DNA of 64,000 bases from Streptomyces venezuelae (lineage in GTDB: Bacteria; Actinomycetota; Actinomycetes; Streptomycetales; Streptomycetaceae): positions 4,774,001 to 4,838,000 of the forward strand of contig NZ_CP029192.1 of assembly GCF_008642315.1 (NCBI RefSeq), in the 5' to 3' direction. Shown piece after piece: positions 3,776 through 34,101 of this stretch (position 1 is its first letter; each line of letters opens with the position of its first letter). Both the position numbers and the translations under genes were made by a program. The notes beneath the pieces were generated by a model that was not told where the DNA came from, made no database searches, and saw only the letters and a program-made list of their open reading frames with translations.

Positions 3776-3940
3776 CCGGAGTCAGGAACTCCCCGCACAG
3801 GGACGGCGTCTGACGGATGTCAGTCCGTTCGGTCAGACTGTTCGTGTGACCATGGGCAGGCCGTCAGGCCGACACCAGGGACGTCCGCTCTCGACATGCT
3901 GTGTTCCCGATCCAGAAGCGACACCACGAGGCCTACCGCA

Positions 3941-8150: not shown

Positions 8151-13286
<5,136 letters not shown>

Positions 13287-13352
13287 GTTGGTTCTGAAAC
13301 CACGAACAACCCCATGCAAGGTCACGCATGGTGCGGTTGACAGTTTCATAGT

Positions 13353-13471
13353 GTTTCGGTGGTCATAGCGTGAGGGAAACGCCCGGTTACATTCCGAACC
13401 CGGAAGCTAAGCCTCACAGCGCCGATGGTACTGCAGGGGGGACCCTGTGGGAGAGTAGGACGCCGCCGAAC
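13353..13471 (+). rRNA. rrf: 5S ribosomal RNA
   Basis: The 119-nt gene runs from GTTTCGGTGGTCATAGCG to the complementary CGCCGCCGAAC. It contains the conserved CCGAACCCGGAAGCTAAG loop and GGGAGAGTAGG. It lies 87 bp after 23S rRNA and just before a strong terminator. Confidence 0.97.
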
Positions 13472-19054: not shown

Positions 19055-19792
19055 GTGGTCCACGTGAAGGAAGCCCTCTCCCGCAGCACCGTCGTCATCA
19101 CCGGCGCGGGCAGCGGCATCGGACTCGCCACCGCCGAACTCGTCGCGCGGCGCGGAGCCCGCGTCGTCCTCACCGACCGCAGCGCGGAGGTGGTGCGCCC
19201 GCACGCCGAGCGGATCGCGGAACTCACCGGCTCGGAGGCCGAGTACCGGGCGCTGGACGTCACCGACGGCGCCGCCGTCGAGGAGGTCATGGGCTCGGTC
19301 GGCACCATCGACCACCTCTTCACCTGCGCGTCCGGCAGCGTCGTCGCGCCGTTCGAGGAGCTCACGGAGGCCGAGGTGCGCCGGTTCTTCGAGGTCAAGT
19401 GGTGGGGGCAGTACCGGTGCCTGCGGGCCGCGCTGCCGCACCTGCGCAGGGAGACGGGGTCGGTCACGCTCGTCTCCGGCTACCTCTACCGCAAGACCGA
19501 CCCGGGCTACTTCGCGTTCGGCGCCGTCAACGGAGCGGTCGAGGCCGCGGTGAAGTCCCTTGCCGTCGAGCTGGCGCCGCTCCGCGTCAACGCGATCGCC
19601 CCCGGTCCGACCGACACGCACGCCCACCTGATGAGCCCCGAGCAGCACCGGGCCTACCGGGCGGAGATCGCCGAGCGGCTGCCCGTGGGGCGGCCCGGCA
19701 CGGCCGAGGAGGTCGCCCACGCGGCGGCGTACCTGATGGAGAACGCGTTCACGACCGGTACGACGCTGGACGTCGACGGCGGCAAGCGCTGA
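19055..19792 (+). CDS. Short-chain dehydrogenase/reductase with atypical active site
   Basis: The 245-residue Rossmann protein has the NAD(P)-binding TGAGSGIG motif at residues 16-23 and the SDR C-terminal DVDGGKR end. The usual YxxxK catalytic pair is replaced: the aligned segment reads FGAVNGAVEAAVKSLA, so Tyr is Phe and Lys is Asn. A minority of SDR-like proteins share this change, and classical dehydrogenase chemistry is then doubtful. GTG 19055 follows AAGGACGG. It is divergent from the LuxR-type regulator and ends 27 bp from the convergent stop of the coupling-protein-like gene. Confidence 0.8.
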   Translation: MVHVKEALSRSTVVITGAGSGIGLATAELVARRGARVVLTDRSAEVVRPHAERIAELTGSEAEYRALDVTDGAAVEEVMGSVGTIDHLFTCASGSVVAPFEELTEAEVRRFFEVKWWGQYRCLRAALPHLRRETGSVTLVSGYLYRKTDPGYFAFGAVNGAVEAAVKSLAVELAPLRVNAIAPGPTDTHAHLMSPEQHRAYRAEIAERLPVGRPGTAEEVAHAAAYLMENAFTTGTTLDVDGGKR

Positions 19793-19819: not shown

Positions 19820-21526
19820 TCACGTCACCGGCAGTTCGCTGTCCGGCCAGCGTGACCTGCCCTGTTCCCGGGACCGGAGCAGAGCCAGGGTCGGCAGGCC
19901 CCGGCCCGCCCCGGTGGAGAGCAGCTCCGGCAGCTGAGGCAGCGGAGCCACCGCGGCGACGTCGTCCAGGACGAGCGTCATTGGTGGGTCGAGCCGACCG
20001 GAGGATGACCGTGCGGCCATGCGCCGGCCGTGCTCGACCACGCTGGAGGCGAGTGCCGTCAACAGGGGCATGGCACCCGGGCCTTGGCGGGCCTTGGGAT
20101 CCTCGATCGCCTCACCCACCACAAAAAGCGTGCCCCCTTCATCGACAAAGGAATCCAGAGAGAGCGCATCAGTTCGGTTCGGTGCGCAGGATTCGCGTAC
20201 GTGGACGGTGAAGAGCGCGGCCAGGGCGCGGGCGGTCAACTCCTGCGCGATGTCCCGCCTTTCGGGGTGCGCGGTGAGCGTGGCCTCCAGCTCGCCCGCG
20301 GCGCCGGGCGCGGCCTTCGGATGCGTACGGAGGATGCGTACCGCCTCCTGCACCTGGTTGCCCTGCGACCAGCGGTGCACGTTCTTCATGGGCTTGTCCG
20401 CCACCGCGGCGGCGTGCAGGAAGCTGCGCATCAGGATCTGGGCCGTGTCGGCCACGGCGACGTCCAGCTTCGACGCCGGTCTTATCGGGGCGAGGAGCGC
20501 GGCGGCACGTGCCTCCGCCGTCGCCTTGTCCGCGCAGCCGGTGGTGGGGGACCAGTGGAGGCGGGCCGGGGTGTCGCACAGGTGGGAGGGGTCGTAGAGC
20601 AGGACGGGCCCGAGCTTGGCCCGCGCGTCCTTCGTCTCGGCCCACAGGGTGGGATCGGAGGTCAGGACGAGCGCGGCACCCTCGGCATCCTGGACGGCCT
20701 GCACGGCGAGGGGGCGGCGGGTGGCCGGGTCGCCGAGGACCAGGGGGGCGCGGGGGGTGGGGACGGTGAGGGGTGCGCTGGTGCCGGGGGCGGCGCCGAC
20801 GGGGGCGGCGTACTCGACCGGCGTGGCGGTGGAGAGGGGGGCGAGGGCCGGGGCGGGTGCGCCTGGTTCCGCCGGTGCGGGTCCTGGGGCCGGTACGGGG
20901 GGCTGACCGGGGGCCGGGGCCGGGGCTGGAACCGCGGTGGGTTCCGGTGCGGGGGTCTGGGGCGGTGTCGGGGCGGGGGCCGGTCCCGCTGCGTGGGCTG
21001 GGGTCGGTGCTGGTGCTGGTGCTGGTCCCGGTTCCGGTGTCTGAACCGCTGCCGGACCAGGGGCAGAGCTCGGCGCCTCCGCCCCCTCCCGCCGAGCCCT
21101 CCGCACAGCCCGCCACCGCGTGACCGTCCCCATCACGAAGACGGTCATGACGATGAGCACCAGCAGTTGGCCGATGAACAGGCCCCAGAACAGGCCGTAG
21201 CCCGACAGCTGGTCCGCCGGGGTCTCCGGCCAGGCGCCCGCCACGTCCTTCGGGTTGCCGATCAAGTGGCGTACCGCGGGCGGCGTATGGCCGAACGAGA
21301 CCTTCTCCGGCCACGCGCCCCGCGCGAACCGCCCCGCGAGGTTCGTGGCCGACCAGACGAGCACCGTGGCCCCGATCAGGAGGCCCAGGAAACCCACCAG
21401 GAGGCCGTCGGGAACCCCGCCGGAGCCGGACCCGGACGGCCGTGCCCGTCCGCCCCCGCGGGGGCCGCCGGGATCCGCCGGACCCCGCCCGTGCGGGGAC
21501 CGCCCCCGCTCCCACTCATCCCGCAT
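19820..21526 (-). CDS. VirD4/TraG-like coupling protein with degenerate P-loop and short C terminus
   Basis: The 568-residue protein has two transmembrane helices (about residues 35-60 and 110-135) and a long Pro/Ala linker. Its cytoplasmic part resembles actinobacterial type IV coupling proteins: a YDPSHLCDTPARLHWSP segment where these read FDP...RWSP, Walker-B-like MTLVLDDVAAVAPLPQLPELLS, and the following TLALLRSREQGRSRW. Where a P-loop should stand it reads VLGDPATRRPLAVQ, so the GKT/S is lost. The protein ends soon after the Walker B region, about 100 residues short of typical relatives. ATG 21526 follows GGAGC and overlaps the VirB4-like gene by 11 bp. It is last in the type IV secretion-like operon (SCO4126 position by recall). 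Confidence 0.75.
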   Translation of the reverse strand: MRDEWERGRSPHGRGPADPGGPRGGGRARPSGSGSGGVPDGLLVGFLGLLIGATVLVWSATNLAGRFARGAWPEKVSFGHTPPAVRHLIGNPKDVAGAWPETPADQLSGYGLFWGLFIGQLLVLIVMTVFVMGTVTRWRAVRRARREGAEAPSSAPGPAAVQTPEPGPAPAPAPTPAHAAGPAPAPTPPQTPAPEPTAVPAPAPAPGQPPVPAPGPAPAEPGAPAPALAPLSTATPVEYAAPVGAAPGTSAPLTVPTPRAPLVLGDPATRRPLAVQAVQDAEGAALVLTSDPTLWAETKDARAKLGPVLLYDPSHLCDTPARLHWSPTTGCADKATAEARAAALLAPIRPASKLDVAVADTAQILMRSFLHAAAVADKPMKNVHRWSQGNQVQEAVRILRTHPKAAPGAAGELEATLTAHPERRDIAQELTARALAALFTVHVRESCAPNRTDALSLDSFVDEGGTLFVVGEAIEDPKARQGPGAMPLLTALASSVVEHGRRMAARSSSGRLDPPMTLVLDDVAAVAPLPQLPELLSTGAGRGLPTLALLRSREQGRSRWPDSELPVT

Positions 21527-22916
21527 GCTGCTCCATGTACGCCGCCCGCTCCTCAGCCTCCAGCTCCGCCGCCCGCATCGCGTCGTCGGACGGGGCTTCG
21601 TGGGGGAGGTCGGCCGACGACTCGGTCATGGCGCGGTCGGTGAAGACCAGCGGCCGTTCCGTCTCGGTGATCAGGTGCTTCACCACCTGTACGTTGCCGT
21701 TCACGTCCCAGACGGCGATACCGGGCGTGAGCGTCGGGATGATCTCCACGGCCCACCTGGGCAGCCCGAGGACCCGTCCCGTGGCCCGTGCCTCGTCCGC
21801 CTTCTGGGCGTAGATCGTCCGGGTGGAGGCCATCTTCAGGATCGCGGCCGCCTCCTTGGCCGCCGCCCCGTCCACGACGTCGCTGAGGTGGTGGACCACC
21901 GCGACGAACGACAGACCGAGGCGTCGGCCGAACTTCAGGAGGCGCTGGAACAGCTGGGCCACGAAGGGGGAGTTGATGATGTGCCACGCCTCTTCGACCA
22001 GGAAGATGCGCTTCTTGCGGTCCGGGCGGATCCAGGTGTGTTCGAGCCAGACGCCGACGATCGCCATCAGAATCGGCATCGCGATCGAGTTGCGGTCGAT
22101 GTGGGAGAGGTCGAAGACGATGAGGGGGGCGTCGAGGTCGATGCCGACGGTCGTCGGACCGTCGAACATGCCGCGCAGGTCGCCGTCGACGAGACGGTCG
22201 AGGACGAGCGCCACGTCCAGACCCCACGCCCGCACGTCGTCTATGGCCACGTTCATGGCCTCGGCCGACTCCGGCTCGGGGTGGCGCAGCTGCTCGACGA
22301 TGTCGGTCAGGACCGGCTGCCGCTCGACGATGGTCTCGTTCACGTACGCGTGCGCGACCTTCAGCGCGAAGCCCGACCGCTCGTCGAGGCCGTGCCCCAT
22401 GGCGACCTCGATGATGGTGCGGAGCAGCGCGAGCTGCCCGGTCGTCGTGATCGCCGGGTCCAGCGGGTTGAGCCGGATGCCCATGTCCAGGGCGGCCGTC
22501 GGGTCGAGCCGGATGGGAGTTATCCCCAGCTCCTGGGCGATGAGGTTCCACTCGCCGACGCCGTCCTCGCCCTGCGCGTCCAGGACGACGACCTGCCGGT
22601 CCTTGAACCGCAGCTGCCGCAGTACGTACGTCTTCTCCAGCGCCGACTTGCCGTTCCCGGACTCGCCGAGCACCAGCCAGTGCGGAGCGGGCAGCTGCTG
22701 CCCGTACAGCTGGAAGGGGTCGTAGATGTACCCCTTGCCGGAGTACACCTCACGCCCGATGATCACGCCCGAGTCGCCGAGTCCTGGCGCGGCCGTCGGG
22801 AGGTAGACCGCCTGGGCCTGCCCCGTGGACGTACGCACCGGAAGCCTGGTCGTCTCGACCTTCCCGAAGAGGAAGGAGGTGAAGGCGTCCGTGAGGACGG
22901 TCAGCGGATCCCGCAT
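21516..22916 (-). CDS. VirB4/TraE-like secretion ATPase (C-terminal ATPase half)
   Basis: The 466-residue P-loop ATPase has Walker A GESGNGKSAL at about residue 83 and Walker B KRIFLVEEAWHIIN at about 310, followed by a VVHHLSDVV segment typical of VirB4-type enzymes. It lacks the N-terminal VirB4 domain, which appears to be supplied by the gene just upstream (22963-24522). VirB4 proteins energize assembly and substrate transfer in type IV secretion and are the most conserved component. Its start is 46 bp after the upstream gene, and its end overlaps the coupling-protein-like gene by 11 bp. Confidence 0.85.
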   Translation of the reverse strand: MRDPLTVLTDAFTSFLFGKVETTRLPVRTSTGQAQAVYLPTAAPGLGDSGVIIGREVYSGKGYIYDPFQLYGQQLPAPHWLVLGESGNGKSALEKTYVLRQLRFKDRQVVVLDAQGEDGVGEWNLIAQELGITPIRLDPTAALDMGIRLNPLDPAITTTGQLALLRTIIEVAMGHGLDERSGFALKVAHAYVNETIVERQPVLTDIVEQLRHPEPESAEAMNVAIDDVRAWGLDVALVLDRLVDGDLRGMFDGPTTVGIDLDAPLIVFDLSHIDRNSIAMPILMAIVGVWLEHTWIRPDRKKRIFLVEEAWHIINSPFVAQLFQRLLKFGRRLGLSFVAVVHHLSDVVDGAAAKEAAAILKMASTRTIYAQKADEARATGRVLGLPRWAVEIIPTLTPGIAVWDVNGNVQVVKHLITETERPLVFTDRAMTESSADLPHEAPSDDAMRAAELEAEERAAYMEQHAG

Positions 22917-22962
22917 CGCAACAGCCTGCCTCTACGTCGATACCGTCTAGCGCTCGCGCGCT

Positions 22963-24522
22963 CTAGCGTCGGATGCCGGTCGCGAACGGCAGCGTGTTGA
23001 CGAAGGCCCTGTGGTGCTCGCGGTCGCACCACTCCAGCTTCAGATACGACTTGCCGGCGGAGGCGCGGATGGTGCGCTTGTCGCGCGCGAGCGCCTCCGG
23101 GGAACGGGAAGAGACCGTGATGTAGCCGACGAGGTTGACACCCGCCGCGCCGCTCGCCAGGTCCTCGCCGCGCTGGTCGAGGCGGGAGTGCGAGGCGATG
23201 TCGCGGGGGTCGACCGTGCGGTTCATCTTGGCCTGGCGGCTCGCCTCCGCCTCGTCGTTCGTCTTCTCGGTGAGCATCCGCTCGATGGCGACCTCGGTGG
23301 GTTCGAGGTCCATCGTCACGGCCACCGTCCTGATGACGTCCGGGGTGTGGACGAGCAGCGGGGCGAGGAAGTTGACGCCGACGGGCGTCATCGGCCACTC
23401 CTTCACCCAGGCCGTCGCGTGGCACCACGGGGCGCGGGTGGAGGACTCGCGGGTCTTCGCCTGGAGGTAGGTGGGCTCCATGGCGTCGAGCTCGGCGGGC
23501 CAGGCGTTGCGCTTCGTCATCGCCTGGATGTGGTCGATGGGGTGGTCCGGGTCGTACATGGAGTGCACCAGAGAGGAGAGCCGCCCTTGTCCGAGCGGCT
23601 GCCTGACCCGGATGTCGGCCTCCTGGAGGCGCGAGCAGATGTCGGTGAGCTCGCGCGCCATGACGACGGCGAGACCGGCGTCCTTGTCGAGCTTCCTGCC
23701 GCCGGCCGGGCGGGCCGCGCGGGCCATCGCCTGCGCCTCCGCGGCGAGGTCACGGGAGTAGTGCATGCAGGCCACGAGGTACGCGCGGTGCTGCTCGCTG
23801 CTGGTGGACACCATGGACTGCAACTGGTCGTACGACTGCTGGAGCCAGGGCAGCGCCCGGTCGTCGCCGCGCACGCTGACGTCCTTGGCGTGGGCGTCCG
23901 GGTCGGCGGGCAGGGTACGGGCGAGCATCTGGAGGCGGGTGACGAACCCGTCCCCGTTGGCGACGTGCTTGAGGAGCGTGCCGAACCGGTCGACGAGGGC
24001 CTCCTGGTCCTCGCTGTCGCGCAGCCCGACGCCGGGACCTTCGATCTCGATGGCGGCGGTGACGGTCCGTCGGTCGGCGTGCAGCAGCACGGCGATCTCG
24101 TCCGGGCCGAAGGGCGCGGCCAGCCAGCTGATGCGGCCGATGCCGGGCGGCGGACCGATCTCGACCTCCCTGCCGTCCAGCCGGACGCCCGCCTCGGGCG
24201 AGGCGGAGCGGTAGGCGGTCCCGCGCTTCAACGACCGCTTGAAACTCCGGTTGATCTCGAACCACTTGTAGAACGTCCGGCCCTTGTACGGGACGTACAC
24301 CGCCGCGATGGCGAGCATCGGGAGACCGGTGAGCAGCATGATGCGCAGGGAGAGGACGGGGACGAGGAGCCCGCACATCATGCCGAGGAAGGCGCCCACG
24401 ATGATCAGGGCGATCTCCCCGGTCTCGCGGTTCTTGCCGACGATCGCGTTCGGCCGGGCGCGGCCGATCAGATATGTGCGGCGGGGCGCGACCGGCTGGG
24501 ACAGGTGGGACTGGGTCGTCAA
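22963..24522 (-). CDS. SCO6880-family membrane protein (PrgI/VirB4 N-terminal-like)
   Basis: The 519-residue protein starts TYLIGRARPNAIVGKNRETGE, followed by two adjacent transmembrane helices (about residues 36-80) and a large cytoplasmic part. This layout is that of the actinobacterial SCO6880 family, found next to VirB4-like ATPases in conjugation loci. It corresponds to a PrgI/VirB3-like membrane anchor plus the N-terminal VirB4 domain. No P-loop is present. The start is TTG 24520-24522 after GGAGGTGAAGG and overlaps the previous stop (TTGA), indicating translational coupling. Confidence 0.78.
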   Translation of the reverse strand: MTTQSHLSQPVAPRRTYLIGRARPNAIVGKNRETGEIALIIVGAFLGMMCGLLVPVLSLRIMLLTGLPMLAIAAVYVPYKGRTFYKWFEINRSFKRSLKRGTAYRSASPEAGVRLDGREVEIGPPPGIGRISWLAAPFGPDEIAVLLHADRRTVTAAIEIEGPGVGLRDSEDQEALVDRFGTLLKHVANGDGFVTRLQMLARTLPADPDAHAKDVSVRGDDRALPWLQQSYDQLQSMVSTSSEQHRAYLVACMHYSRDLAAEAQAMARAARPAGGRKLDKDAGLAVVMARELTDICSRLQEADIRVRQPLGQGRLSSLVHSMYDPDHPIDHIQAMTKRNAWPAELDAMEPTYLQAKTRESSTRAPWCHATAWVKEWPMTPVGVNFLAPLLVHTPDVIRTVAVTMDLEPTEVAIERMLTEKTNDEAEASRQAKMNRTVDPRDIASHSRLDQRGEDLASGAAGVNLVGYITVSSRSPEALARDKRTIRASAGKSYLKLEWCDREHHRAFVNTLPFATGIRR

Positions 24523-25874
24523 CGCCCTTCACCTCCCGTGCGGTTGGTACTGCTGTTGCGTGAACCGCCGCGGTGGCCCGCGTGCGGGGTGTCCGTCGCG
24601 CTGCTGCGCGGCGGGGGTGCGGCGGAGGGGACAGATCCGCCGCCGTTGGAGGAGCCGCCGCCGGAACCGCGGCTGCTGTGGGCGGCGACGCCGCCGCTGG
24701 CGGGGTTGGCGGGGCGGGCCTGGCTGTTCCCGCCGCCTCCGCCACTTCCGCCGCTGTTCCCGTTCCCGCGGGCACTGTGGGTCTTGATGCCCTGCGAGAC
24801 GAGGGAGGCGGGGGAGCTGATCACGGCGGCGGCCTTGTTCTCGGCGCCGCGCATGATGCGGTTGTTCCGCGAGTTGGCGATCTCGTCCCCGAAGCCGGGG
24901 ACGAAACGATAGATCATGGCGCTCGCGAAGATGGCGAGCAGGATGATCGAGAGCCCGGAGACGACCGCGGAGAACGAGTCCGGCCCGTCGTCGGCGGAGA
25001 GCGCGCCGGCGAGACCCAGCACGATGACGATGATCGGTTTCACGAGGATGACGGCGATCATGATGCCCGCCCAGCGGCGGACGTGCGTCCACAGGTTCTT
25101 GTCGACGAGGCCCGCGTAGACGACGGTGCCGAGGAGCGCTCCTACGTACAGGAGCGCCGCCCTGATCACGAGCTCGAGCCAGAGCACGCCGGCGGCGAGG
25201 ATCGACACGAGCGAGACGACGATCAGCATGATCGGGCCGCCCCCGATGTCCTCGCCCTTCTTCAGCGCGCCGGAGAACGTCCCGAAGAACGTGTCCGTCT
25301 GACCGCCCGTCGCCTTCGCGATGACGTCCGTGACGCCGTCCGTCGCGGACACGACGGTGTAGAGGATCAGGGGGGTGAAGGCGGAGGCGAGGACCGTGAG
25401 CCAGAGGAAGCCGATGGCTTCGGACAGGGCGGTGGTGAGCGGCACGCCGCGTACTGCCCTCTTCGCCACGGCGAGGAGCCACAGCAGGAGCGTCAGCACG
25501 GTGCTCGCCGCGAAGACGACGGCGTACTGCTGCAGGAACTCCGGGTTCGTGAAGTCGACGTTCGCCGTCTCCTTCACGGCGTCCGAGAGCTTGTCGACGG
25601 TCCAGGAGGCGGCGTCGGCGCAGCCCTTGGCCAAAGAGCTAAGGGGGTCGAGGGTCGAGTCGAGGGGGCTCTCGGTGGGGTAGTCGCCTCCGCCGCTTCC
25701 GCCGCCTTCTTGGCCTTTTTCGCAGTACTTCTTGGCGGGGCCGTGGATGAGGTCGCAGGCGTCCTCGTCCTTGGGGTCCGGGGCGGCGACAGCACGCGTC
25801 GCAAGCAGGATTGCGGCGGTCTGGACAGTGGCGACAGTGGCGCCAAGTCGGAGCACACGGCGGCTACCGGGCAT
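24519..25874 (-). CDS. VirB6/TrbL-like polytopic membrane protein
   Basis: The 451-residue protein has a signal sequence (residues 1-28, ending AVAAP), an extracellular segment with a Cys pair (DACDLIHGPAKKYC) and six to eight transmembrane helices between about residues 95 and 330. A Gly/Ser/Asn/Arg-rich tail of about 110 residues follows. The topology is that of VirB6/TrbL channel proteins. The start ATG 25874 follows GGAGGG and overlaps the upstream gene stop by 11 bp; a longer frame to 26000 has no support. The tail is low-complexity and its DNA is compositionally repetitive. Confidence 0.75.
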   Translation of the reverse strand: MPGSRRVLRLGATVATVQTAAILLATRAVAAPDPKDEDACDLIHGPAKKYCEKGQEGGGSGGGDYPTESPLDSTLDPLSSLAKGCADAASWTVDKLSDAVKETANVDFTNPEFLQQYAVVFAASTVLTLLLWLLAVAKRAVRGVPLTTALSEAIGFLWLTVLASAFTPLILYTVVSATDGVTDVIAKATGGQTDTFFGTFSGALKKGEDIGGGPIMLIVVSLVSILAAGVLWLELVIRAALLYVGALLGTVVYAGLVDKNLWTHVRRWAGIMIAVILVKPIIVIVLGLAGALSADDGPDSFSAVVSGLSIILLAIFASAMIYRFVPGFGDEIANSRNNRIMRGAENKAAAVISSPASLVSQGIKTHSARGNGNSGGSGGGGGNSQARPANPASGGVAAHSSRGSGGGSSNGGGSVPSAAPPPRSSATDTPHAGHRGGSRNSSTNRTGGEGR

Positions 25875-26712
25875 AGGTGAACCCTCCGTATCCTTCGACG
25901 GCCTTGGCGATCTCGTCGGAGTTGGACGCACGCTCGTCACCCGGGACCGGGGCAGGTCCGTCCTTCTGGGAGTGCGTGACCGCCTTCCAGTCACCGTCAA
26001 TCCACGCCAGCTCCATGGTCAGCGTGAACCAACTGTTGGTGACCGGTTTGGTGGACTTCTCTCCGGCAAGGCCCAGCAGACCACTGCACCAGACCTCGAC
26101 GGTCGCCTTGCCCTCCGAGAAGGCGGTGGCCTTGGTTCCGATCGGAGTCGTACGAGAGATGAACTGGTAGCCGCTAGGCGTCGAGCCGTCCTCGTTCAGG
26201 CCCACGTTCTTGAAGAACGGGGCTGTGTAGGCCTTGTCCAACTCGGTCTGGAACTTGGCGACGCTGGACGGAGCCATGACGGTGTTGAGGATGGCGTTCC
26301 GCTTGTTCTTGTCGAACATCTCCGCTGAGCCGAGGGGCACGGCGAAGTTCGCCGCCGCGCTCTCGGCACCCTGCTTGGTCTTGGCGAAGCCGGAGGCGAT
26401 CCCACCGGCCTTGCCGCCTACCGGCTTCGTCCCCGAAGCAGCCGTCGGAGACGAAGCGGCCTTGTCCCCGTCATCCCCTCCGGAGGAGGAATCATCGCCC
26501 CCCCGATTGGCGAAGGCGATCGCGGCGATCAGCAGGACCACGACGCCCACGACAGTGACCAGACTGCGCGAGGACGTGCGTCCGCCGCGGGCGGATCTGC
26601 GCAGGCCGCCGCCGTAGACGTCGTCGCCCCCGCCCTCCCCCTCGGGAAGCCGCGTCCGGGTCTCTCCCGAGCCGCCGAAGAGGCCGTCGTTCCGGTCGTC
26701 GTCGGGACTCAT
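25864..26712 (-). CDS. Bitopic membrane protein, probable VirB8/TcpC-like component
   Basis: The 282-residue protein has a charged Gly-rich cytoplasmic N terminus, one transmembrane helix at about residues 45-66 (SLVTVVGVVVLLIAAIAFA), a Gly/Ser/Asp linker and a roughly 190-residue extracytoplasmic domain. The ending WFTLTMELAWIDGDWKAVTH is reminiscent of the NTF2-like fold of VirB8/TcpC proteins. That assignment is inferred from topology and operon position. ATG 26712 is preferred over ATG 26721 because the GAGGGGG ribosome-binding site is better spaced. The stop overlaps the VirB6-like start by 11 bp. Confidence 0.65.
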   Translation of the reverse strand: MSPDDDRNDGLFGGSGETRTRLPEGEGGGDDVYGGGLRRSARGGRTSSRSLVTVVGVVVLLIAAIAFANRGGDDSSSGGDDGDKAASSPTAASGTKPVGGKAGGIASGFAKTKQGAESAAANFAVPLGSAEMFDKNKRNAILNTVMAPSSVAKFQTELDKAYTAPFFKNVGLNEDGSTPSGYQFISRTTPIGTKATAFSEGKATVEVWCSGLLGLAGEKSTKPVTNSWFTLTMELAWIDGDWKAVTHSQKDGPAPVPGDERASNSDEIAKAVEGYGGFTYAR

Positions 26713-26844
26713 GCCGCGCATGCCCCCTCAACCTCTCGCTGGACCGTCTCGTAGGACACGTATGACGGTAGCCCTGCTGGTTCCCGCGCGGGCGCGGTGT
26801 GGTGACTCGACATCAGGGAGTTGCAACCTCAGCCGGTGGGCACG

Positions 26845-26945
26845 ACGGACGGGTGGGGGAGAGGGCGGACAGGGAGAGGGGGGAAGGGGACAGGGTGGGG
26901 GGACGTGGGACATGGGGACCGGGGACCTGGGAGAGGGAAGGCGGC
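26845..26945. other. Purine/G-rich tract between the first two genes of the secretion operon
   Basis: On the plus strand this 100-bp stretch is a near-continuous run of G tracts (GGGTGGGGGAGAGGG, GGGGGGAAGGGG, GGGTGGGGGG) capable of G-quadruplex formation. The operon transcript reads the opposite, C-rich strand. It occupies the 250-bp gap between the 102-residue membrane protein gene and the VirB8-like gene and may limit transcription. Confidence 0.5.
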
Positions 26946-26962
26946 GGGTGCGCGGGGGACCG

Positions 26963-27271
26963 CTAGACCGCCATGCCGTAGACGATCGTGAACAGTGTGC
27001 CCAGCGACCCGATGATGAAGACGCCGGTCAGCCCCGCGATGATCAGACCCTTGCCCTGCTCCGCGCTGAACGTGTCACGAAGCGCCGTCGCGCCGATGCG
27101 CTGCTTCGCCGCACCCCAGATCGCGATGCCGAGACAGAGGAGGATGGCGATCGCCATCACGACCTCGATCATCACGCGTGCCTCGTTGCCCAGGCTCCCG
27201 AAGGGACCCCAGTCGGGGGCGATCCCGCCGATGATGGTGGTGATGTCGCCCTTTTCGGCTGCCATAAGCAT
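26963..27271 (-). CDS. Small two-helix membrane protein, VirB2-like candidate
   Basis: The 102-residue protein has two transmembrane helices (MIEVVMAIAILLCLGIAIW and GLIIAGLTGVFIIGSLGTL) joined by a short basic loop (GAAKQRIGATALRD). Size and topology match VirB2/TrbC-like pilin or channel subunits and the small membrane protein found at the head of actinobacterial conjugation operons. ATG 27271 follows GGCGGTGAG; a GTG start 12 codons earlier is less likely. It is first in the operon, 250 bp ahead of the next gene. Function is inferred from context only. Confidence 0.6.
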   Translation of the reverse strand: MLMAAEKGDITTIIGGIAPDWGPFGSLGNEARVMIEVVMAIAILLCLGIAIWGAAKQRIGATALRDTFSAEQGKGLIIAGLTGVFIIGSLGTLFTIVYGMAV

Positions 27272-27486
27272 GTGTAACTCACCGCCCCTAGTGGGTTGTT
27301 CTGTCACCTCTGCCCACTCGGTGCAGAGGACAGCTCATTGTCGCCGACAATCGGGCCCGCGCATGTCGCCTTGGCGCCATTCGTTGGCTGAGTTCGTACG
27401 TTTCCTCGTACGCGAGGTCCGGTGACTCTGTGTATCACGCGGTACGACGCCGGGCAATGACGGCCCGGCGTGCCCCTGACCAGGTG

Positions 27487-27765: not shown

Positions 27766-28500
27766 TCAGCCTGCGGGGGAGTCGCTGACCGTGCCGACCG
27801 GGCTGATCGACAGCTTCGGGCCGCCGGAGGGGGCATCGGGGTTGGCCGCGGGGAGGGAGCCCGCGGGCCAGGCGATGGTGACGGTCTTCGTCTCGTTCGG
27901 CGGCGTCACGAGGATCTTGGAGACGCGCACGCCGGAGCCACCGCTGTTGTTGATGGGGAACGTGATGTTGAAGGCGGCGGACTCGCCGTCCTTCAGGACG
28001 CCGGGCGTGGCCTTCTCGCCGTTGCGGTCCACGGACAGGGTGTCGCCCGTGGCGGTCTTGAGGTCGACGCCCGCGTAGCCGTTGATGGCGCAGTCGCGGC
28101 CGCCGCCGTTCTCGAACTGGACGGTGACGACGCCTTCCGTCTTGTCGGTGCTGTTGTCGACGGCGGTGACTTCCAGTTCGTCGCTGCGGCAGATGCCGAT
28201 CTTGCCGTTCGAGTGGGAACCGGTGCCGGCACCGGTTCCCTTGCCGCTGTCGTTGCCGCCGCTCTTGCCCTCGGTGCCGGCTCCGCTGTCACTGCCGCCG
28301 CTGCCGGAGGTGCCGCCTCCGGTCCCCTGGTCCGACCCGCTGCCCGAGCCGCCGCTACCGCCCGCGGTGGAGCTCGCGGCGGAGTCGGCGGACCCCGCAC
28401 CCGTGCCGCCGGTGTCGTCTCCGTTGCAGGCGGTCAGGCCGAGCGTGCTGATCAGCGCGAGACCGGCGAGGAGGGTCTTGGTGGCATGCGTGTGCTTCAT
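27766..28500 (-). CDS. DUF4232-type secreted lipoprotein
   Basis: The 244-residue precursor has a lipoprotein signal with lipobox LTAC (Cys at about residue 25), a Gly/Ser/Asp-rich linker of about 70 residues and a C-terminal beta domain with two Cys (GICRSDELEVTAV, GGGRDCAINGYAGVDL). This is the DUF4232 pattern found in many Streptomyces extracellular lipoproteins of unknown role. ATG 28500 follows GGGGAC; the longer frame has no signal peptide. The gene stands alone with tandem hairpins after its stop. Confidence 0.85.
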   Translation of the reverse strand: MKHTHATKTLLAGLALISTLGLTACNGDDTGGTGAGSADSAASSTAGGSGGSGSGSDQGTGGGTSGSGGSDSGAGTEGKSGGNDSGKGTGAGTGSHSNGKIGICRSDELEVTAVDNSTDKTEGVVTVQFENGGGRDCAINGYAGVDLKTATGDTLSVDRNGEKATPGVLKDGESAAFNITFPINNSGGSGVRVSKILVTPPNETKTVTIAWPAGSLPAANPDAPSGGPKLSISPVGTVSDSPAG

Positions 28501-28695
28501 GTGGGGTCCCCGTGAGGTGGTGTGGGCTGGGCTGTACGAGGCCGGTTGTTCGGCCTGCTCCACAGCGAAGCGGGTGCCTCCGGGGCGGGGCAAGGAGTGC
28601 CGGACGATCAGGAACGCTGGAATGCCGGCGTGGGCTCTGACCTGCTTAAACAGCCACTCCCTGGAACGGCTCGGTGGGATGGGGTGGGCCCGGGG

Positions 28696-29391
28696 TCAGC
28701 GTTCGCCCGCGGGAACGCCGTACCAGCGCCACTCGGTTCGGCGGGGTCGGCCGGGCAGGGTGCCGCGGCCGGTGGCCCACAGGAGGAGGCCCCACGGATC
28801 GTCCGCCACCACCTCGGACCCGGCGTCCGCCACCACGTCCGGGAAGAGGCGGTGGAGGACGCGGGCGCAGAGCTCGGCGGGCGGGGCCCAGAGGTGGCCG
28901 ATGCCGAGCCCGCCCGCGATGTCGTACGTGTGGACCAGCGTCTCCACGATCCCCATCGCGGCGAAGCCCTCGGGGTCGGAGACGCCCCAGCCGTGGTGGG
29001 CGCGGACCGTCGCGGGCGTGGTCGCGACCATGCCGGTCAGCAGGGCACCGCACGACTCCAGGACCTGCAACAGCCCCGCGACGCCGGCCTCGCGGTCGGC
29101 GAAGGTGACGTTGGACGGCCCGCCGTGCCGCCGCCGGTACCAGAGGAAGGGCACCTCGGTGCCCAGAGGCGGCTGCTCGGGGCCGAGCTGCGCGGCGTAC
29201 GCGAAGAGGTCGTCGGCGAGGTGCTCGACGGTCTCCCAGCAGTCCCAGTCCAGCCCACCGGCCTTGCCGCTCCAGTCGGCGTCGTCGGGGGCCTTGCGGA
29301 GGACGGCCACGGCCAGACGTACGGCGGTGGTGACGTCCTCGGCGGTGACGGGGGCGGGCTCACGGGCGGCGGCGTCTCGGGTCTCTGGCAT
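28696..29391 (-). CDS. Mycothiol-dependent maleylpyruvate isomerase-like (DinB/MDMPI N-terminal domain) protein
   Basis: The 231-residue protein matches the MDMPI_N/DinB-like four-helix fold: LDWDCWETVEHLADDL provides the first metal His, and IVETLVHTYDIAG the later Glu/His ligands. Family members use mycothiol or bind metal in detoxification or isomerization; the substrate here is unknown. Mycothiol is made by this organism, since mshD is present in this window. It stands between a lipoprotein and an ABC exporter with no overlap, so it is probably transcribed alone. Confidence 0.8.
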   Translation of the reverse strand: MPETRDAAAREPAPVTAEDVTTAVRLAVAVLRKAPDDADWSGKAGGLDWDCWETVEHLADDLFAYAAQLGPEQPPLGTEVPFLWYRRRHGGPSNVTFADREAGVAGLLQVLESCGALLTGMVATTPATVRAHHGWGVSDPEGFAAMGIVETLVHTYDIAGGLGIGHLWAPPAELCARVLHRLFPDVVADAGSEVVADDPWGLLLWATGRGTLPGRPRRTEWRWYGVPAGER

Positions 29392-29463
29392 GGCGGGAAG
29401 ATAGCAGCGGGGGTGTGGGGGCTGACCAGTGGTTTTCGACGGAGGGGCCGGCCCCCGGCTCTC

Positions 29464-30186
29464 CTAGTTCTGCTCAGCCCGTTCCGACTGGCGCGGCCCA
29501 GCCGTCGCGGAGGCGCAGGCACCGGCCGCCCAGAGCAGGACGGCGGTGATCATCGCGGGGGTGTGGGTCGACGGGTGGAGGGACCAGGCCCAGGGCTCGG
29601 GGGTGTTGTCGCTGCCCACTCCCAGGAGCAGCGTGGGTCCGAACATGCCCAACGGGAGCAGCCAGGCGAGGCCGCTGCCGAAGAGGCGGGCGCTGAGCAT
29701 GCCGAGGCCCAGATAGCCGATGACGTTGCGGGCCGCCGAGACGAAGACCTCGCTCGTGGCTCCGGCGAGGAGCGGCAGGGCGGTCAGGCCCAGGGCCAGG
29801 GCGAGGAGGGTGATCAGGTACAGGGCTCGGTGGCGGGACATCGGCTGGGCCGACGTCTGCTCCAGGTCGGCCATGGGGGAGAAGAGCGTCGTGGCCAGGA
29901 TCACCGCGTGGGCCAGCGGGACGATCTCGGCCACGGGGACGCTGAAGTCGACCAGGTACCGGAACTCCGGTACCGCGACGCGTTGGCCCGCGAACGCGGT
30001 CGCCGCCAGGGCCACGAGCAGGGCGACGGCCGCCGCGCGGGGCAGGCCCCGGCAGCGTACGAAAGCCAGGACAGGGGCGAGTCGTGGGTCTTGGAGCAGG
30101 CCTGAGCGGGCCGGTTCCTCGGAGCGGCTGGTCGGGCTCGGAGTGGTCGGGCTCGGAGTGGTCGGTTCGGGATTCGCTGGGGGCAT
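29464..30186 (-). CDS. Integral membrane protein, ABC exporter-associated
   Basis: The 240-residue protein has a Pro/Thr/Ser-rich N terminus with a repeated TTPSP element and about six transmembrane helices. No catalytic motif is visible. It follows the large permease gene by 47 bp and the ATPase gene before that, so it is probably a second membrane subunit of the same exporter. ATG 30186 is used. Confidence 0.7.
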   Translation of the reverse strand: MPPANPEPTTPSPTTPSPTSRSEEPARSGLLQDPRLAPVLAFVRCRGLPRAAAVALLVALAATAFAGQRVAVPEFRYLVDFSVPVAEIVPLAHAVILATTLFSPMADLEQTSAQPMSRHRALYLITLLALALGLTALPLLAGATSEVFVSAARNVIGYLGLGMLSARLFGSGLAWLLPLGMFGPTLLLGVGSDNTPEPWAWSLHPSTHTPAMITAVLLWAAGACASATAGPRQSERAEQN

Positions 30187-30233
30187 CGCGGCGCTGTCGA
30201 TTCACTCGGGGGCAGCTGGGGGAGCTGCGGCAG

Positions 30234-31535
30234 CTACGGGAGTTCGGGGACCGGCTCGCACGCGCGGATGTCGCCGGCCGCCGCCTCGATCCACCGGTCC
30301 TGCTTCGCGCGCGGAGCGCCGGTGATGCGCTCGAGGGCGCGGCCGAACTCCTCCCCGTAGTACTCGCCGGGGGCCCCGATGCGGGCGCGTACGGCCGCTT
30401 CGAACAGGAACGTGTCGGGGTAGCCGCCGGCCGACTTGAGGAGGTGCGGCGCGCACTTCGATGACCTGGGCTGCGGGAGGGCCGCCGAGAACATCGCGTC
30501 GGTCAGGTCGTCCTTGGTCGCCGCCGGTGACATGAGGGGCAGTTCGGCGCTGCCTGCGCCGGACGGGAGGTCGAGGCCGTCGGCGTAGAAGGAGCGGTTG
30601 AGTCCGGAGAGGGAGCCGAGCCCGGAGTCGACGGTCCGTACGGCGGCTCGGGCCTGGGGCAGCAGATGACGGTCGTCCGGCCACAGGCACGCCTTCGTGC
30701 GGCCGCTGGTGGTGCAGAGCGGCTGCGCGGGCTGTTCCTTGCGCACGGCCCAGTACGAGTCGGGCACCGGTGTGCGGAAGGCCACGAGGGTGCCGCCCGC
30801 GACGAGCGCGGCCACCGTGAGCGCGCCGAGCGCGACCGGGCGGGGCGCGAGGGCGGCGCCGCGCCAGAGCGCGGGCAGCGCGATGAGGGCGAGGCCGAAC
30901 GCCAGGCACCAGGCGACGGCGACCAGCATGCGCGTCGTGTTGGGCTCGAACTCCGAGCTCCAGAACTCGTCTATCGCGGGGAACAGCTTGTCGAGCGGGG
31001 TGTCGGGGACGAACGCGACGACGACGAAGAGGCTGTACCAGAAGACGCCCGCGAAGGGGGCGACCACGCGGGAGGGCAGCGCGGAGCCGACGGCGACCCC
31101 GACGGCGATCTCCAGGCCCATCATGCCCGCGCCGAGCAGCAGCGGCGTCCACGCGGGTTCGCTGACGTCGCTGACTCCGGCGGTGCGGGAGAAGGCGACG
31201 GCGATCAGTACGGCGTACGCGAGGAGGGCCCAGAGCCAGGCCGCGAGCCAGAGCAGCAGCGACTGGGACCAGCTGCCGCGGGCGGCGGTGTCGGCCCAGA
31301 GCCGGGTGCGGTGGCGGAAGGCGCGGCCCGCGCTCCAGGCGGCCGCCGCGCTCATCACGGAGCCCATCACGATGACGGAGAAGAGCTGGACCTGGAGGCT
31401 GGTCTGGGTCCACCAGCCGATCCAGTCGCTCTCGTCGGGGCTCTCCGCGGTGAAGTAGTAGACGCCGATGGCACCCATGAGGGCGGCGGCCCATTTGGCC
31501 TCGCCGCGGCGCATTTCGGTGAGGAGCACGCGCAT
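30234..31535 (-). CDS. ABC exporter permease with large extracytoplasmic C-terminal domain
   Basis: The 433-residue membrane protein has about six helices in residues 15-260, followed by a soluble region of about 170 residues. That region contains four Cys (CTTSGRTKACLW, SSKCAPHL, DIRACEPVPEL) and probably faces outside. The start ATG 31535 shares one base with the stop of the ATPase gene (TGATG), indicating coupling. Permeases with a Cys-rich periplasmic-side domain are seen in Streptomyces lantibiotic or peptide exporters; the substrate is unknown. Confidence 0.75.
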   Translation of the reverse strand: MRVLLTEMRRGEAKWAAALMGAIGVYYFTAESPDESDWIGWWTQTSLQVQLFSVIVMGSVMSAAAAWSAGRAFRHRTRLWADTAARGSWSQSLLLWLAAWLWALLAYAVLIAVAFSRTAGVSDVSEPAWTPLLLGAGMMGLEIAVGVAVGSALPSRVVAPFAGVFWYSLFVVVAFVPDTPLDKLFPAIDEFWSSEFEPNTTRMLVAVAWCLAFGLALIALPALWRGAALAPRPVALGALTVAALVAGGTLVAFRTPVPDSYWAVRKEQPAQPLCTTSGRTKACLWPDDRHLLPQARAAVRTVDSGLGSLSGLNRSFYADGLDLPSGAGSAELPLMSPAATKDDLTDAMFSAALPQPRSSKCAPHLLKSAGGYPDTFLFEAAVRARIGAPGEYYGEEFGRALERITGAPRAKQDRWIEAAAGDIRACEPVPELP

Positions 31536-32338
31536 CAGCCGGCCACCGCTTCCGTGCCGGCGAGGTGCAGATATCCGGCTTCCACGGCACTCCCGTCGAT
31601 GTCGCCGCCCGCGTCACCCGTGTCCCCGTCGGGCAGCGCGCACAGCTCGGCGACCGTGCCAGTGAACCGGACCGTGCCTTCGAGGAGGACGGCGACGCGG
31701 TCGCACACGTGGGCCACGTCCTCGGCGAGGTGGGTGCTCATCACCACCGCGCAGCGGTCGCCCAACTCCTTGATGAGCTTGCGGAATCCGACGCGCTGGG
31801 CCGGGTCGAGGCCCACCGTCGGTTCGTCGAGGAGGACGAGGGAGGGCTCGTTGACCATGGCCTGGGCGATGCCGACGCGGCGCAGCATGCCGCCGGAGAG
31901 GGCGCCCATCCGCGTACCCGCGTGCTTCTCCATCTGCACCAGGCGCAGCGCCTCGCGGGCGCGTTCGCGGCGCTGGGAGGCGGGCACCTTGCGCAGCCAG
32001 GCGGCGTATTCGGTGAACTCCAGGACGGTGAAGCGGGGGTAGTACCCGAAGGACTGCGGCAGCACCCCGATCTGCTTGCGCAGCCGCTGCACGCGGGTGC
32101 GTCCCGGGGTCTCGCCCAGGAGGGTGACGTCGCCGGACTTCGGCCTGCGGGCCGTGCTCAGCAGCGACAACAGGGTGCTTTTTCCCGCTCCGTTGGGCCC
32201 CAGGAGACCGGTGACTCCGGCGGGGAAGGTGAGGGAGACGTCGTCGAGGGCGGTCGTCGAGCCGTACTGGACGGTGACGCCCGCGACCGCCGCGACCGGC
32301 TGGGAGCCGGTCGCGGCGGCGCTGTGGGGAGTGCTCAC
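31535..32338 (-). CDS. ABC transporter ATP-binding protein
   Basis: The 267-residue ATPase has Walker A LLGPNGAGKSTLL (about residue 45), Q-loop LPQSFGYYPRFTV, signature LSGGMLRRVGIAQAM, Walker B LVLLDEPTVGLDP and the His switch VMSTHLAED. It starts at GTG 32338 after an AGGA site. It is the first gene of the three-gene exporter operon 32338-29464. No dedicated regulator is adjacent. Confidence 0.9.
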   Translation of the reverse strand: MSTPHSAAATGSQPVAAVAGVTVQYGSTTALDDVSLTFPAGVTGLLGPNGAGKSTLLSLLSTARRPKSGDVTLLGETPGRTRVQRLRKQIGVLPQSFGYYPRFTVLEFTEYAAWLRKVPASQRRERAREALRLVQMEKHAGTRMGALSGGMLRRVGIAQAMVNEPSLVLLDEPTVGLDPAQRVGFRKLIKELGDRCAVVMSTHLAEDVAHVCDRVAVLLEGTVRFTGTVAELCALPDGDTGDAGGDIDGSAVEAGYLHLAGTEAVAG

Positions 32339-32370
32339 GTGATTCCTGAGTCCTGAATCCTGAGTTCGAA

Positions 32371-32793
32371 TCAGTTCTGGGCGTTCACGTAACCGTAGGC
32401 CCGGCTGCCGGGTATGCCGGCCCAGGTGGCCTTGGTGTAGTACTTGCCGCCGGTGCTGGTGCCCTTGTACGCGCCACAGCCGTAGCCCTGCTTGTAGCTG
32501 CGGGACGTGCTGGCGATCTTCGGGTCGGGGCGGAAGCTCTTGTCCTGGTAGATGTACGCGCTGAACGTCCGCGTGTCGTTCACCGGCACGTCGCCGCAGG
32601 CCTTGGCGTGCCCGCTGCTCTTGCCCTTCCAGCGGTCACCGTCTTCCTTGCTCCCCGCTGTGGAGAGGGCGAACGGCAGCCGGCTTCCGCTGATCTCCGC
32701 GGCCACCGCACCCACGGCGGGCACGCTGATGGCGACCGCCGTCAGCACACCCACGACCGCGAGCTTGCGCTTCCCCGTAAAACGCTTGCGCAT
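32371..32793 (-). CDS. Small secreted protein of unknown function
   Basis: The 140-residue precursor has a Sec signal peptide (MRKRFTGKRKLAVVGVLTAVAIS, cleavage near AVAA) and a mature part of about 105 residues. Two Cys (KACGDVP, GYGCGAY) probably form a disulfide, and the C-terminal half is Tyr/Gly-rich (KYYTKATWAGIPGSRAYGYV). ATG 32793 follows AGGAGAG; an ATG six codons earlier has no site. I recognise no family. It is divergent from a cell-wall hydrolase gene, and the ABC exporter operon begins 33 bp after its stop. Confidence 0.75.
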   Translation of the reverse strand: MRKRFTGKRKLAVVGVLTAVAISVPAVGAVAAEISGSRLPFALSTAGSKEDGDRWKGKSSGHAKACGDVPVNDTRTFSAYIYQDKSFRPDPKIASTSRSYKQGYGCGAYKGTSTGGKYYTKATWAGIPGSRAYGYVNAQN

Positions 32794-33090
32794 GAACTCT
32801 CCTAAAATCACGACGAATTGGTCGTAACTGCTTGGTCGCCGATCACATTAGGGGAGGACGCTGACGCTCCGTAGGTCATTAGTTCGAGTGTGTACATGAT
32901 CACTTATGAGTCATGGGGCGTGGCGGTGCTTGATCGCCGGAAGTTGGCCTGATATCGGCGCTGCGACGCTCTTCCACTCGCCATCAGTACGACGACGTGG
33001 CGCCCCACTTTGTGAGGCGCCCTGGCGCGGTCACGTGTGACCTCTACACTGAGCGCCGGTGGACTACCGGCCGGTGAAGGGTGGTTGACG

Positions 33091-34101
33091 GTGCGTAAGG
33101 CGTGGCTGGTCGCGTCCGTCGGGATCGGCGGGGCCCTCAGCTTCATCGCGCTGCTCGTCGTCGGGACGTACATGGCCGCGGGAAGCATGGCCAACGGGGT
33201 CGGCGGCGGGTCCGTCGGGCTCGCCAAGGGGGCCGTGCCCGCCACCTATCAGCCCCTCGTGCAGAAGTGGGGCAATCTCTGCAAAGCCATCAACCCCGCG
33301 CTGCTCGCCGCTCAGCTGTACCAGGAGAGCGGGTTCAATCCGCGGGCCACGAGTCCGGCCAAGGCGCAGGGGATAGCGCAGTTCATCCCGGGGACGTGGG
33401 CCTCGCACGGCTTGGACGGTGACGGCGACGGGGACCGGGACGTGTGGGATCCGAAGGATGCCATTCCGTCCGCCGCGTCGTACGACTGCAAGCTCGCCGG
33501 GTACGTGAAGGACGCGCCCGGCAACCCCACGAAGAACATGCTCGCCGCGTACAACGCGGGCGCGTACGCCGTCATCAAGTACGGCGGCGTCCCGCCCTAC
33601 AGCGAGACGCAGAACTACGTGAAGACCATCACCGACCTCTCGAAGAGCTTCGCCAGGCCCGTCGGCCGCGTGGAGCCCTCCAGGCAGGCGGCCGGCGCCA
33701 TCTACTACGCCCAGAAGAAGCTGGGCACCCTCTACCTGTGGGGCGGCAACGGCACCCCGGAACAGGGCGGCCGCTTCGACTGCTCCGGGCTCACCCTCGC
33801 CGCGTACCGCTCCGTCGGCGTGACGCTGCCGCGCGTCGCCAACGACCAGTACAACGCGGGGCCGCACCCCAAGAGGGAGGAGCTCCTCCCCGGCGACCTC
33901 GTCTTCTTCTCGGACGACCTGACCAATTCCCGCGCCATCCGGCACGTCGGCATCTACGTCGGCGGGGGCTACATGATCAACGCTCCGCGGACCGGCGCCG
34001 TCATCCGCTTCGACCGCATCGACACACCTGATTATTTCGGCGCGACCCGAGTCACCGAGGACGGTGCCAAGGCCGTGCCGGCCAAGCCGACGGAGGTCTG
34101 A
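33091..34101 (+). CDS. Lytic transglycosylase-NlpC/P60 bifunctional cell-wall hydrolase
   Basis: The 336-residue protein has an N-terminal signal anchor (residues 5-30) and an SLT-like lysozyme-fold domain at about 50-185. The catalytic Glu is in LLAAQLYQESGFNPRATSPA, followed by AQGIAQFIPGTWA and MLAAYNAGAYAV. An NlpC/P60 endopeptidase domain follows at about 205-320, with catalytic Cys in RFDCSGLTL and His in RHVGIYVG. It should cut both glycan strands and stem peptides. GTG 33091 follows AAGGGTGG. It is the likely SCO4132 counterpart, a lytic transglycosylase next to the type IV-like cluster in S. coelicolor (recall). No ydaO riboswitch motif was seen upstream. Confidence 0.9.
   Translation: MRKAWLVASVGIGGALSFIALLVVGTYMAAGSMANGVGGGSVGLAKGAVPATYQPLVQKWGNLCKAINPALLAAQLYQESGFNPRATSPAKAQGIAQFIPGTWASHGLDGDGDGDRDVWDPKDAIPSAASYDCKLAGYVKDAPGNPTKNMLAAYNAGAYAVIKYGGVPPYSETQNYVKTITDLSKSFARPVGRVEPSRQAAGAIYYAQKKLGTLYLWGGNGTPEQGGRFDCSGLTLAAYRSVGVTLPRVANDQYNAGPHPKREELLPGDLVFFSDDLTNSRAIRHVGIYVGGGYMINAPRTGAVIRFDRIDTPDYFGATRVTEDGAKAVPAKPTEV

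Follow-up and report, generated by a model that had tools for sequence, protein, structure and literature searches.

Why does a Streptomyces chromosome carry the genes of a conjugative-type secretion channel with no relaxase beside them? We addressed this question in a 64,000-nucleotide stretch of the Streptomyces venezuelae chromosome (contig NZ_CP029192.1, positions 4,774,001 to 4,838,000; here called the window, to which the coordinates below refer). Six open reading frames (ORFs) occupy positions 19820 to 27271 on the minus strand, where an original prediction, made from the sequence, had placed a type IV secretion system (T4SS)-like operon. By gene set, gene order, and protein families, they appear to be the Streptomyces cmdABCDEF operon, SCO4126 to SCO4131 in S. 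coelicolor. Here, we report that the VirB4 of this gene set is divided between two genes, that its VirD4-like coupling protein has degenerated, and that a cell wall hydrolase gene, tgdA, is linked to cmdF. We tentatively propose, with slightly less than even confidence, that the operon is a captured conjugative-type T4SS now serving as a developmental machine, in which VirB4 would drive export of CmdF while TgdA opens the wall.

CmdB (21516 to 22916, minus strand) consists of the C-terminal ATPase domain of VirB4 alone, with intact Walker A and Walker B motifs. It matched the Pfam family AAA_10 as well as VirB4-type ATPase models, the latter in the C-terminal half of the model, and its relatives in the PDB are the VirB4 entries 4ag5 and 4ag6. 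Both motifs (GESGNGKS and FLVEEAW) were kept in 81/81 aligned sequences, comprising the window and 80 Streptomyces loci, and were also retained in all 27 cmd loci fetched from further genomes across the genus, family, order, and class. Identity to CmdB of the named Streptomyces loci was 95 to 98%, and the median ratio of nonsynonymous to synonymous substitution rates (dN/dS) was 0.042, indicating strong constraint. Here and below, dN/dS was obtained by simple Nei-Gojobori counting in a high-GC genome, from pairs with the window only and with alignments of fewer than 60 codons dropped (leaving 71 of 80 for CmdA and 43 for TgdA). By residue count, lysine 90 is the Walker A lysine of the window CmdB; in S. 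coelicolor, CmdB was reported to be located in the membrane, and mutants at lysines 90 and 404 failed to complement (PMC2782261).

The N-terminal half of VirB4 was found in the adjacent gene. CmdC (22963 to 24522, minus strand) belongs to the SCO6880 family (E value of 1.8e-51 against the SCO6880_fam model), and fold comparison, with alignment to TrwK, identified it as a membrane-anchored VirB4 N-terminal domain. Its two N-terminal hydrophobic helices (residues 34 to 76) have the layout of VirB3, but the region of the model that aligned to TrwK begins only at residue 100 to 125. A search of the PDB with a CmdC sequence profile returned only V-ATPase subunit matches, at an E value of 0.34 or worse. 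The fold comparison rules out that the SCO6880 family is an unrelated membrane protein: VirB4 is divided between CmdC, its N-terminal half, and CmdB, its ATPase half. The original prediction had listed a VirB4-like ATPase and an SCO6880-family protein as separate components. Both are present and the VirB4 assignment is backed by fold, but the two proteins share one VirB4 between them, and the SCO6880-family member is not a separate kind of component. In one same-genus genome, CmdC matched in two pieces (G548:C2:3069723-3071265), possibly through a sequencing error or a real break.

CmdA (19820 to 21526, minus strand) is a degenerate relative of the coupling protein VirD4/TraG. Alignment and hydropathy indicate that the VirD4 layout is kept, with two N-terminal membrane segments followed by a degenerate nucleoside triphosphatase domain. 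The protein is truncated within TraG-D_C, matching only positions 1 to 48 of the 126 in that Pfam model. The Walker A pattern G....GK[ST] occurred in none of the 120 best CmdA homologues of 3,709 (the window protein included), and the canonical motif was missing in 15/15 fetched same-family loci where CmdA was found; the f44 copy (L145) retains GPARSGKA. Three plasmid VirD4s carry Walker A as APPREGKT or GPTGAGKT together with a Walker B glutamate, which is missing in every chromosomal CmdA whose region aligned, and the plasmid relative P0313 matched TraG-D_C over positions 1 to 125 plus the T4SS-DNA_transf model. CmdA was not found at all in 10 of the 26 checkable nonredundant fetched loci (L125, L128, L133, and L146 to L152). 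This absence was called by a Streptomyces-trained profile in sequence that extended 4 kb or more past cmdB, and the 27th fetched locus (G007; L130/L153) was left out of the count because of a contig end. The motif loss rules out an intact VirD4 in the operon, and a second chromosomal VirD4 replacing CmdA is ruled out by a plasmid VirD4 search of the window's own genome, in which CmdA was the sole match at an E value of 0.001. A VirD4 relative is present, as had been predicted, but without the ATP-binding motif of a conjugative coupling protein.

A further component lies outside the six genes. Searching the same genome for the SLT family gave a match inside the window, at 33037 to 34101 on the plus strand. 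The product, TgdA, is a wall hydrolase of the VirB1 type that combines a membrane segment (by hydropathy) with SLT transglycosylase (Pfam, 1.3e-16) and NlpC/P60 (NLPC_P60, 6.9e-23) domains. From its position and domains, we take it as the orthologue of SCO4132, the next number after SCO4131, which is tgdA, a putative secreted lytic transglycosylase (PMC6585502). Among the 73 Streptomyces loci holding cmdF, TgdA was found in 47, divergent to cmdF in 47/47 and 0.28 to 5.3 kb away; in 15 of these 47, where both were measured, the genes lay no more than 0.5 kb apart. The gap in the window is 5.77 kb. The divergent arrangement recurred in 24 of the 27 fetched loci, the exceptions being two loci without both genes in that place (L126 and L134) and one at a contig end (L127). 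In four genomes (G406, G213, G518, and G262), the main operon stretch is without cmdF, and the distant TgdA copy has cmdF beside it (4/4). These four were chosen by eye because TgdA lies elsewhere, rather than drawn from a tabulation across the 200 genomes, and since G518 and G262 look closely related, they may represent three separation events or fewer. A TgdA search gave matches in 200/200 genomes (weak in G408, G422, and G491); however, other SLT/NlpC proteins match too, so a match alone is not proof of orthology. TgdA and CmdF are linked, and the VirB1-like gene tgdA belongs to the cmd set, a member overlooked by the original prediction. Between cmdF and tgdA in the window (27766 to 32811) lie genes for a DUF4232 protein, an MDMPI-like protein, membrane proteins, and an ATP-binding cassette ATPase.

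The remaining three proteins are membrane proteins of different kinds. CmdE (25864 to 26721, minus strand) is bitopic with one NTF2-like domain, and fold comparison identified it as VirB8; with VirB4, it bears out by structure the T4SS likeness, including a VirB8/TcpC-like protein, that had been predicted. Neither CmdD (24519 to approximately 25877, minus strand; start codon uncertain, with the ORF open up to 26000) nor CmdF (26963 to 27271, minus strand; 102 amino acids from an ATG start) matched a Pfam or NCBIfam family. CmdD has seven hydrophobic segments by hydropathy, the first of them signal-like, and is 34 to 35% identical to its positional counterpart on each of two plasmids. CmdF has two hydrophobic segments and showed a median identity of 94% and a dN/dS of 0.058 across 73 Streptomyces loci. 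Their sizes, hydrophobic segments, and operon positions suggest that CmdD may be VirB6-like and CmdF a VirB2-like, pilin-like protein.

Conservation of the gene set across Streptomyces, proposed earlier as a check, was observed: the cmd genes occur in the same order in 80 loci (cmdA, cmdB, and cmdC in 80/80, cmdD in 79, cmdE in 76, and cmdF in 73), those without some cmd gene stopping at a contig end. CmdB matched in 200/200 genomes and 16/16 genera of the window's family, taken as Streptomycetaceae (199 genomes at E values below 1e-240 and G412 at 7.6e-146). CmdC matched in 119/119 genomes of the order, with 70 to 74% identity in 14 genomes of two other families. In a sample of the class, CmdB matched in 170/393 genomes at an E value of 0.001; among the matches listed, identity above 50% was confined to same-genus genomes and G007 (78%), a fragmented assembly with 6% contamination. 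A CmdB relative was also present in 208 plasmid records, each below 60% identity; the one on a Rhodococcus plasmid has a MobF relaxase ∼5.7 kb away. The CmdC tree set the cmd sequences apart from the plasmid-type ones, grouped f45, g124, and g131, and partly followed taxonomy; its bootstrap is not settled, its longest branches are unreliable, and many forks among the cmd sequences are open. The fixed channel without a relaxase of the original prediction looks, from its presence throughout the family and order samples and from the CmdC tree, like a vertically inherited T4SS-like machine. The window's own genome also holds a second, distant set (L132, G000:C1:2603000-2622500) with distant relatives of CmdB, CmdC, and CmdD, whose neighbors (an integrase, a Prim-Pol, an SLT plus NlpC/P60 gene, and a weakly FtsK/AAA_10-like ATPase) suggest an integrative-element setting. 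In the CmdC tree, this set falls inside the cmd sequences on a branch of length 10, which is unreliable, and L114 is likewise long.

The surroundings of the operon agree with its being fixed in place. No relaxase, integrase, or FtsK-type Pfam match was obtained at an E value of 0.001 among 43 nonoperon window proteins, as predicted, and no relaxase or integrase matched among the operon proteins either. The 43 comprise 42 ORFs of a composition-based gene list, a crude one that missed cmdA and cmdE themselves, plus 19055 to 19792. The window contains no tRNA. A mobile element at this site is ruled out by presence in every family and order genome sampled and by the lack of a tRNA and of an integrase among the proteins scanned. 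The neighboring rRNA operon that had been noted lies at 8308 to 13471 on the plus strand, ∼6.3 kb from the cmd operon; upstream of it, at 3896 to 5638, is a phosphatase with SpoIIE, PAS, and HATPase domains. The six cmd genes, described earlier as mostly overlapping, do share one strand, but only the cmdE/cmdD, cmdD/cmdC, and cmdB/cmdA pairs overlap, whereas cmdF and cmdE, and cmdC and cmdB, are separated by gaps. Directly upstream of cmdF (27272 to 27460, minus strand), blocks were kept in more than 90% of 74 aligned sequences (the window and 73 loci), including the consensus run CGTGATACACAGAGTGAC; the stretch as a whole is likely a developmental control region.

Published phenotypes link these genes to development. 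In S. coelicolor, cmdABCDEF is co-transcribed, and cmd deletions were reported to cause delayed aerial mycelium formation, branching, poor septation, and actinorhodin overproduction, with the main effect placed at an early stage of aerial hyphae formation (Xie et al. 2009, PMC2782261). Transposon mutants of cmdB to cmdF, tgdA, and SCO5677 all showed increased actinorhodin and prodiginine (PMC6585502). The original prediction had pointed to reported effects of SCO4126 to SCO4131 on both sporulation and chromosome transfer; the former is documented, but no effect on chromosome transfer was found in the available text of PMC2782261.

How might such a machine work? In our proposal, the chromosome would have captured a conjugative-type T4SS in an ancestor of the order to which Streptomyces belongs, after which the DNA-recruiting part was lost and the VirB4-driven part retained under strong constraint. 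Assembled as one complex, VirB8-like CmdE, VirB6-like CmdD, and CmdC, with its anchor and VirB4 N-terminal domain, would form the membrane platform and CmdB the motor. VirB1-like TgdA would open the cell wall, and CmdF would be the likely polymerizing or exported subunit. Moved across the wall of aerial hyphae, CmdF, perhaps with another envelope protein, may build a conduit or a structure at the surface on which ordered aerial growth and septation depend, the segregation and actinorhodin effects then being secondary. A coupling protein that has decayed or disappeared, together with the failure to find a relaxase, makes it most likely that VirB4 by itself drives the machine, and VirB4-driven assembly or export of CmdF, possibly with other envelope proteins and together with TgdA, would be the most economical mechanism. 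In Gram-negative systems, pilus elaboration is reported to require VirB4 and VirB11 and to proceed without VirD4 (PMC12857230).

Several points weigh against this proposal. VirB11 was reported as not found in Gram-positive systems (PMC12857230), so the parallel with the Gram-negative pilus is incomplete. The pilin role of CmdF is predicted from topology, and filament, secreted substrate, and complex are all still putative. In 26 of the 73 cmdF-holding loci, no TgdA was found within flanks of only 1.9 to 5.8 kb, and in the four genomes with a distant TgdA the gene set is divided between two sites. Purifying selection acts on CmdA (median dN/dS of 0.26; 71 pairs, residues 262 to 568), so this protein still does something. 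Finally, VirB4 proteins were reported to interact with DNA (PMC12857230), and the chromosome segregation defect would fit a DNA role at least as well. Such a role, near what the 2009 authors suggested, would have Cmd pump or anchor the cell's own chromosome at sporulation septa, where CmdB would play the part of FtsK/SpoIIIE. CmdB is an ATPase of the VirB4/HerA/FtsK kind, and anucleate spores reached 8% in the cmdB deletion and 6% in the cmdA-F deletion versus 0.1%, with uneven nucleoids (PMC2782261). We nevertheless consider this role unlikely: CmdB and CmdC form a VirB4, a protein that, according to a 2025 review, has not been shown to take a direct part in substrate recruitment, although DNA contacts were reported (PMC12857230); the decayed part is the DNA-recruiting VirD4; the wall hydrolase and VirB8 platform point to the envelope; and the main effect lies early in aerial hyphae formation.

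The constraint on CmdA, with its VirD4 layout kept, is consistent with a protein-effector T4SS in which CmdA, though lacking ATPase, would act as a receptor and pass one or more secreted proteins on to the channel; a Streptococcus suis T4SS was reported to secrete a protease (PMC12857230). This, too, seems doubtful to about the same degree, because 10 of the 26 checkable loci keep the other genes but yielded no CmdA, and deletion of cmdA alone had no apparent effect on sporulation in S. coelicolor (PMC2782261). No effector gene was identified, no systematic search for one having been made. It is much less probable that the operon still serves DNA transfer between hyphae, of chromosome or plasmid, with plasmid relaxases acting in trans. 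Its relatives do include plasmid sets with an intact-looking VirD4 and, in Rhodococcus, the MobF relaxase, but transfer of an SLP2-derived plasmid did not change significantly upon cmd deletion (PMC2782261, where the data are not shown), the coupling protein, where found at all, is degenerate, and presence in every family and order genome sampled is unlike that of transfer modules. We give the least credence, close to none, to a functionless, decaying remnant of an old integrated element. The degenerating CmdA and the lack of a relaxase fit that idea, yet it is already contradicted for every part except CmdA by presence in all 200 family and 119 order genomes, by dN/dS values of 0.04 for CmdB and 0.06 for CmdF, and by mutant phenotypes in S. 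coelicolor, S. lividans, and S. avermitilis (PMC2782261).

Cmd can be set beside several known systems. The developmental operon of S. coelicolor (SCO4126 to SCO4131) with tgdA (SCO4132) has the same gene set and order. The available text of PMC2782261 already raises the VirB4 likeness of CmdB and a possible type IV-like channel; a split VirB4, VirD4 decay, TgdA as VirB1, a TgdA-CmdF unit, and order-wide conservation do not appear in it. Streptomyces and Kitasatospora plasmid sets (NZ_CP108308 and NZ_CP109408) share the F-E-D-C-B-A order at 28 to 49% identity per gene; unlike CmdA, their VirD4 carries APPREGKT and the Walker B glutamate, and the NZ_CP108308 copy has the full TraG-D_C. MOB-suite typed NZ_CP108308 as nonmobilizable and NZ_CP109408 as mobilizable, so these sets are themselves only putative transfer systems. 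Plasmid loci L113 and L115 have no tgdA-like gene by profile, and an M23 peptidase is annotated in L115. Gram-positive minimal T4SSs encode VirB4 as a single intact gene and have a functional VirD4; Cmd, unlike these, has a split VirB4 with an anchor, a degenerate VirD4, and no relaxase that was found. VirB1-, VirB4-, and VirB8-type parts, and with CmdD a putative VirB6-type one, are shared with such systems (pIP501, pCF10, pCW3, and integrative and conjugative element types; PMC12857230). The TraB/FtsK-type conjugation of Streptomyces, in the same host group as Cmd, uses a single FtsK-like double-stranded DNA motor plus Spd proteins (PMC12857230), and no FtsK-type match occurred among the scanned window proteins. 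Mycobacterial ESX (type VII) is a different machine, in which EccE resembles CmdC in predicted fold; no Pfam EccE match was listed for 57 CmdC-type proteins even at an E value of 10, so this likeness is one of fold alone. The chain concerned would be EccE3, to judge from the description in PMC6986878.

The split VirB4, the decay of CmdA, and the TgdA-CmdF unit were undescribed in the titles and abstracts of the literature searched, with most subscription journals outside it. According to the 2025 review, almost every function known for a Gram-positive T4SS is confined to DNA translocation, and a term search of the review's main text found "coelicolor," "sporulation," and "SCO41" all absent (PMC12857230). 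We hold more tentatively than our main proposal a broader version of it: Cmd may be a housekeeping, vertically inherited Gram-positive T4SS without a coupling protein, running on a split VirB4 alone, with TgdA and CmdF acting as a VirB1-VirB2 pair that would pass a pilin-like filament or conduit across the wall of aerial hyphae in the course of development, and a fold shared by CmdC and EccE, membrane helices included, would tie type IV to type VII secretion. If the proposal is true, this order-wide core machine, derived from a T4SS, required for normal development, and without a functional coupling protein, would stand out as a clear exception among Gram-positive bacteria, and the work of VirB4 itself would be separable from that of VirD4. 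The puzzle posed in 2009, of conjugation-like genes that affect sporulation, would then become directly testable in Streptomyces.

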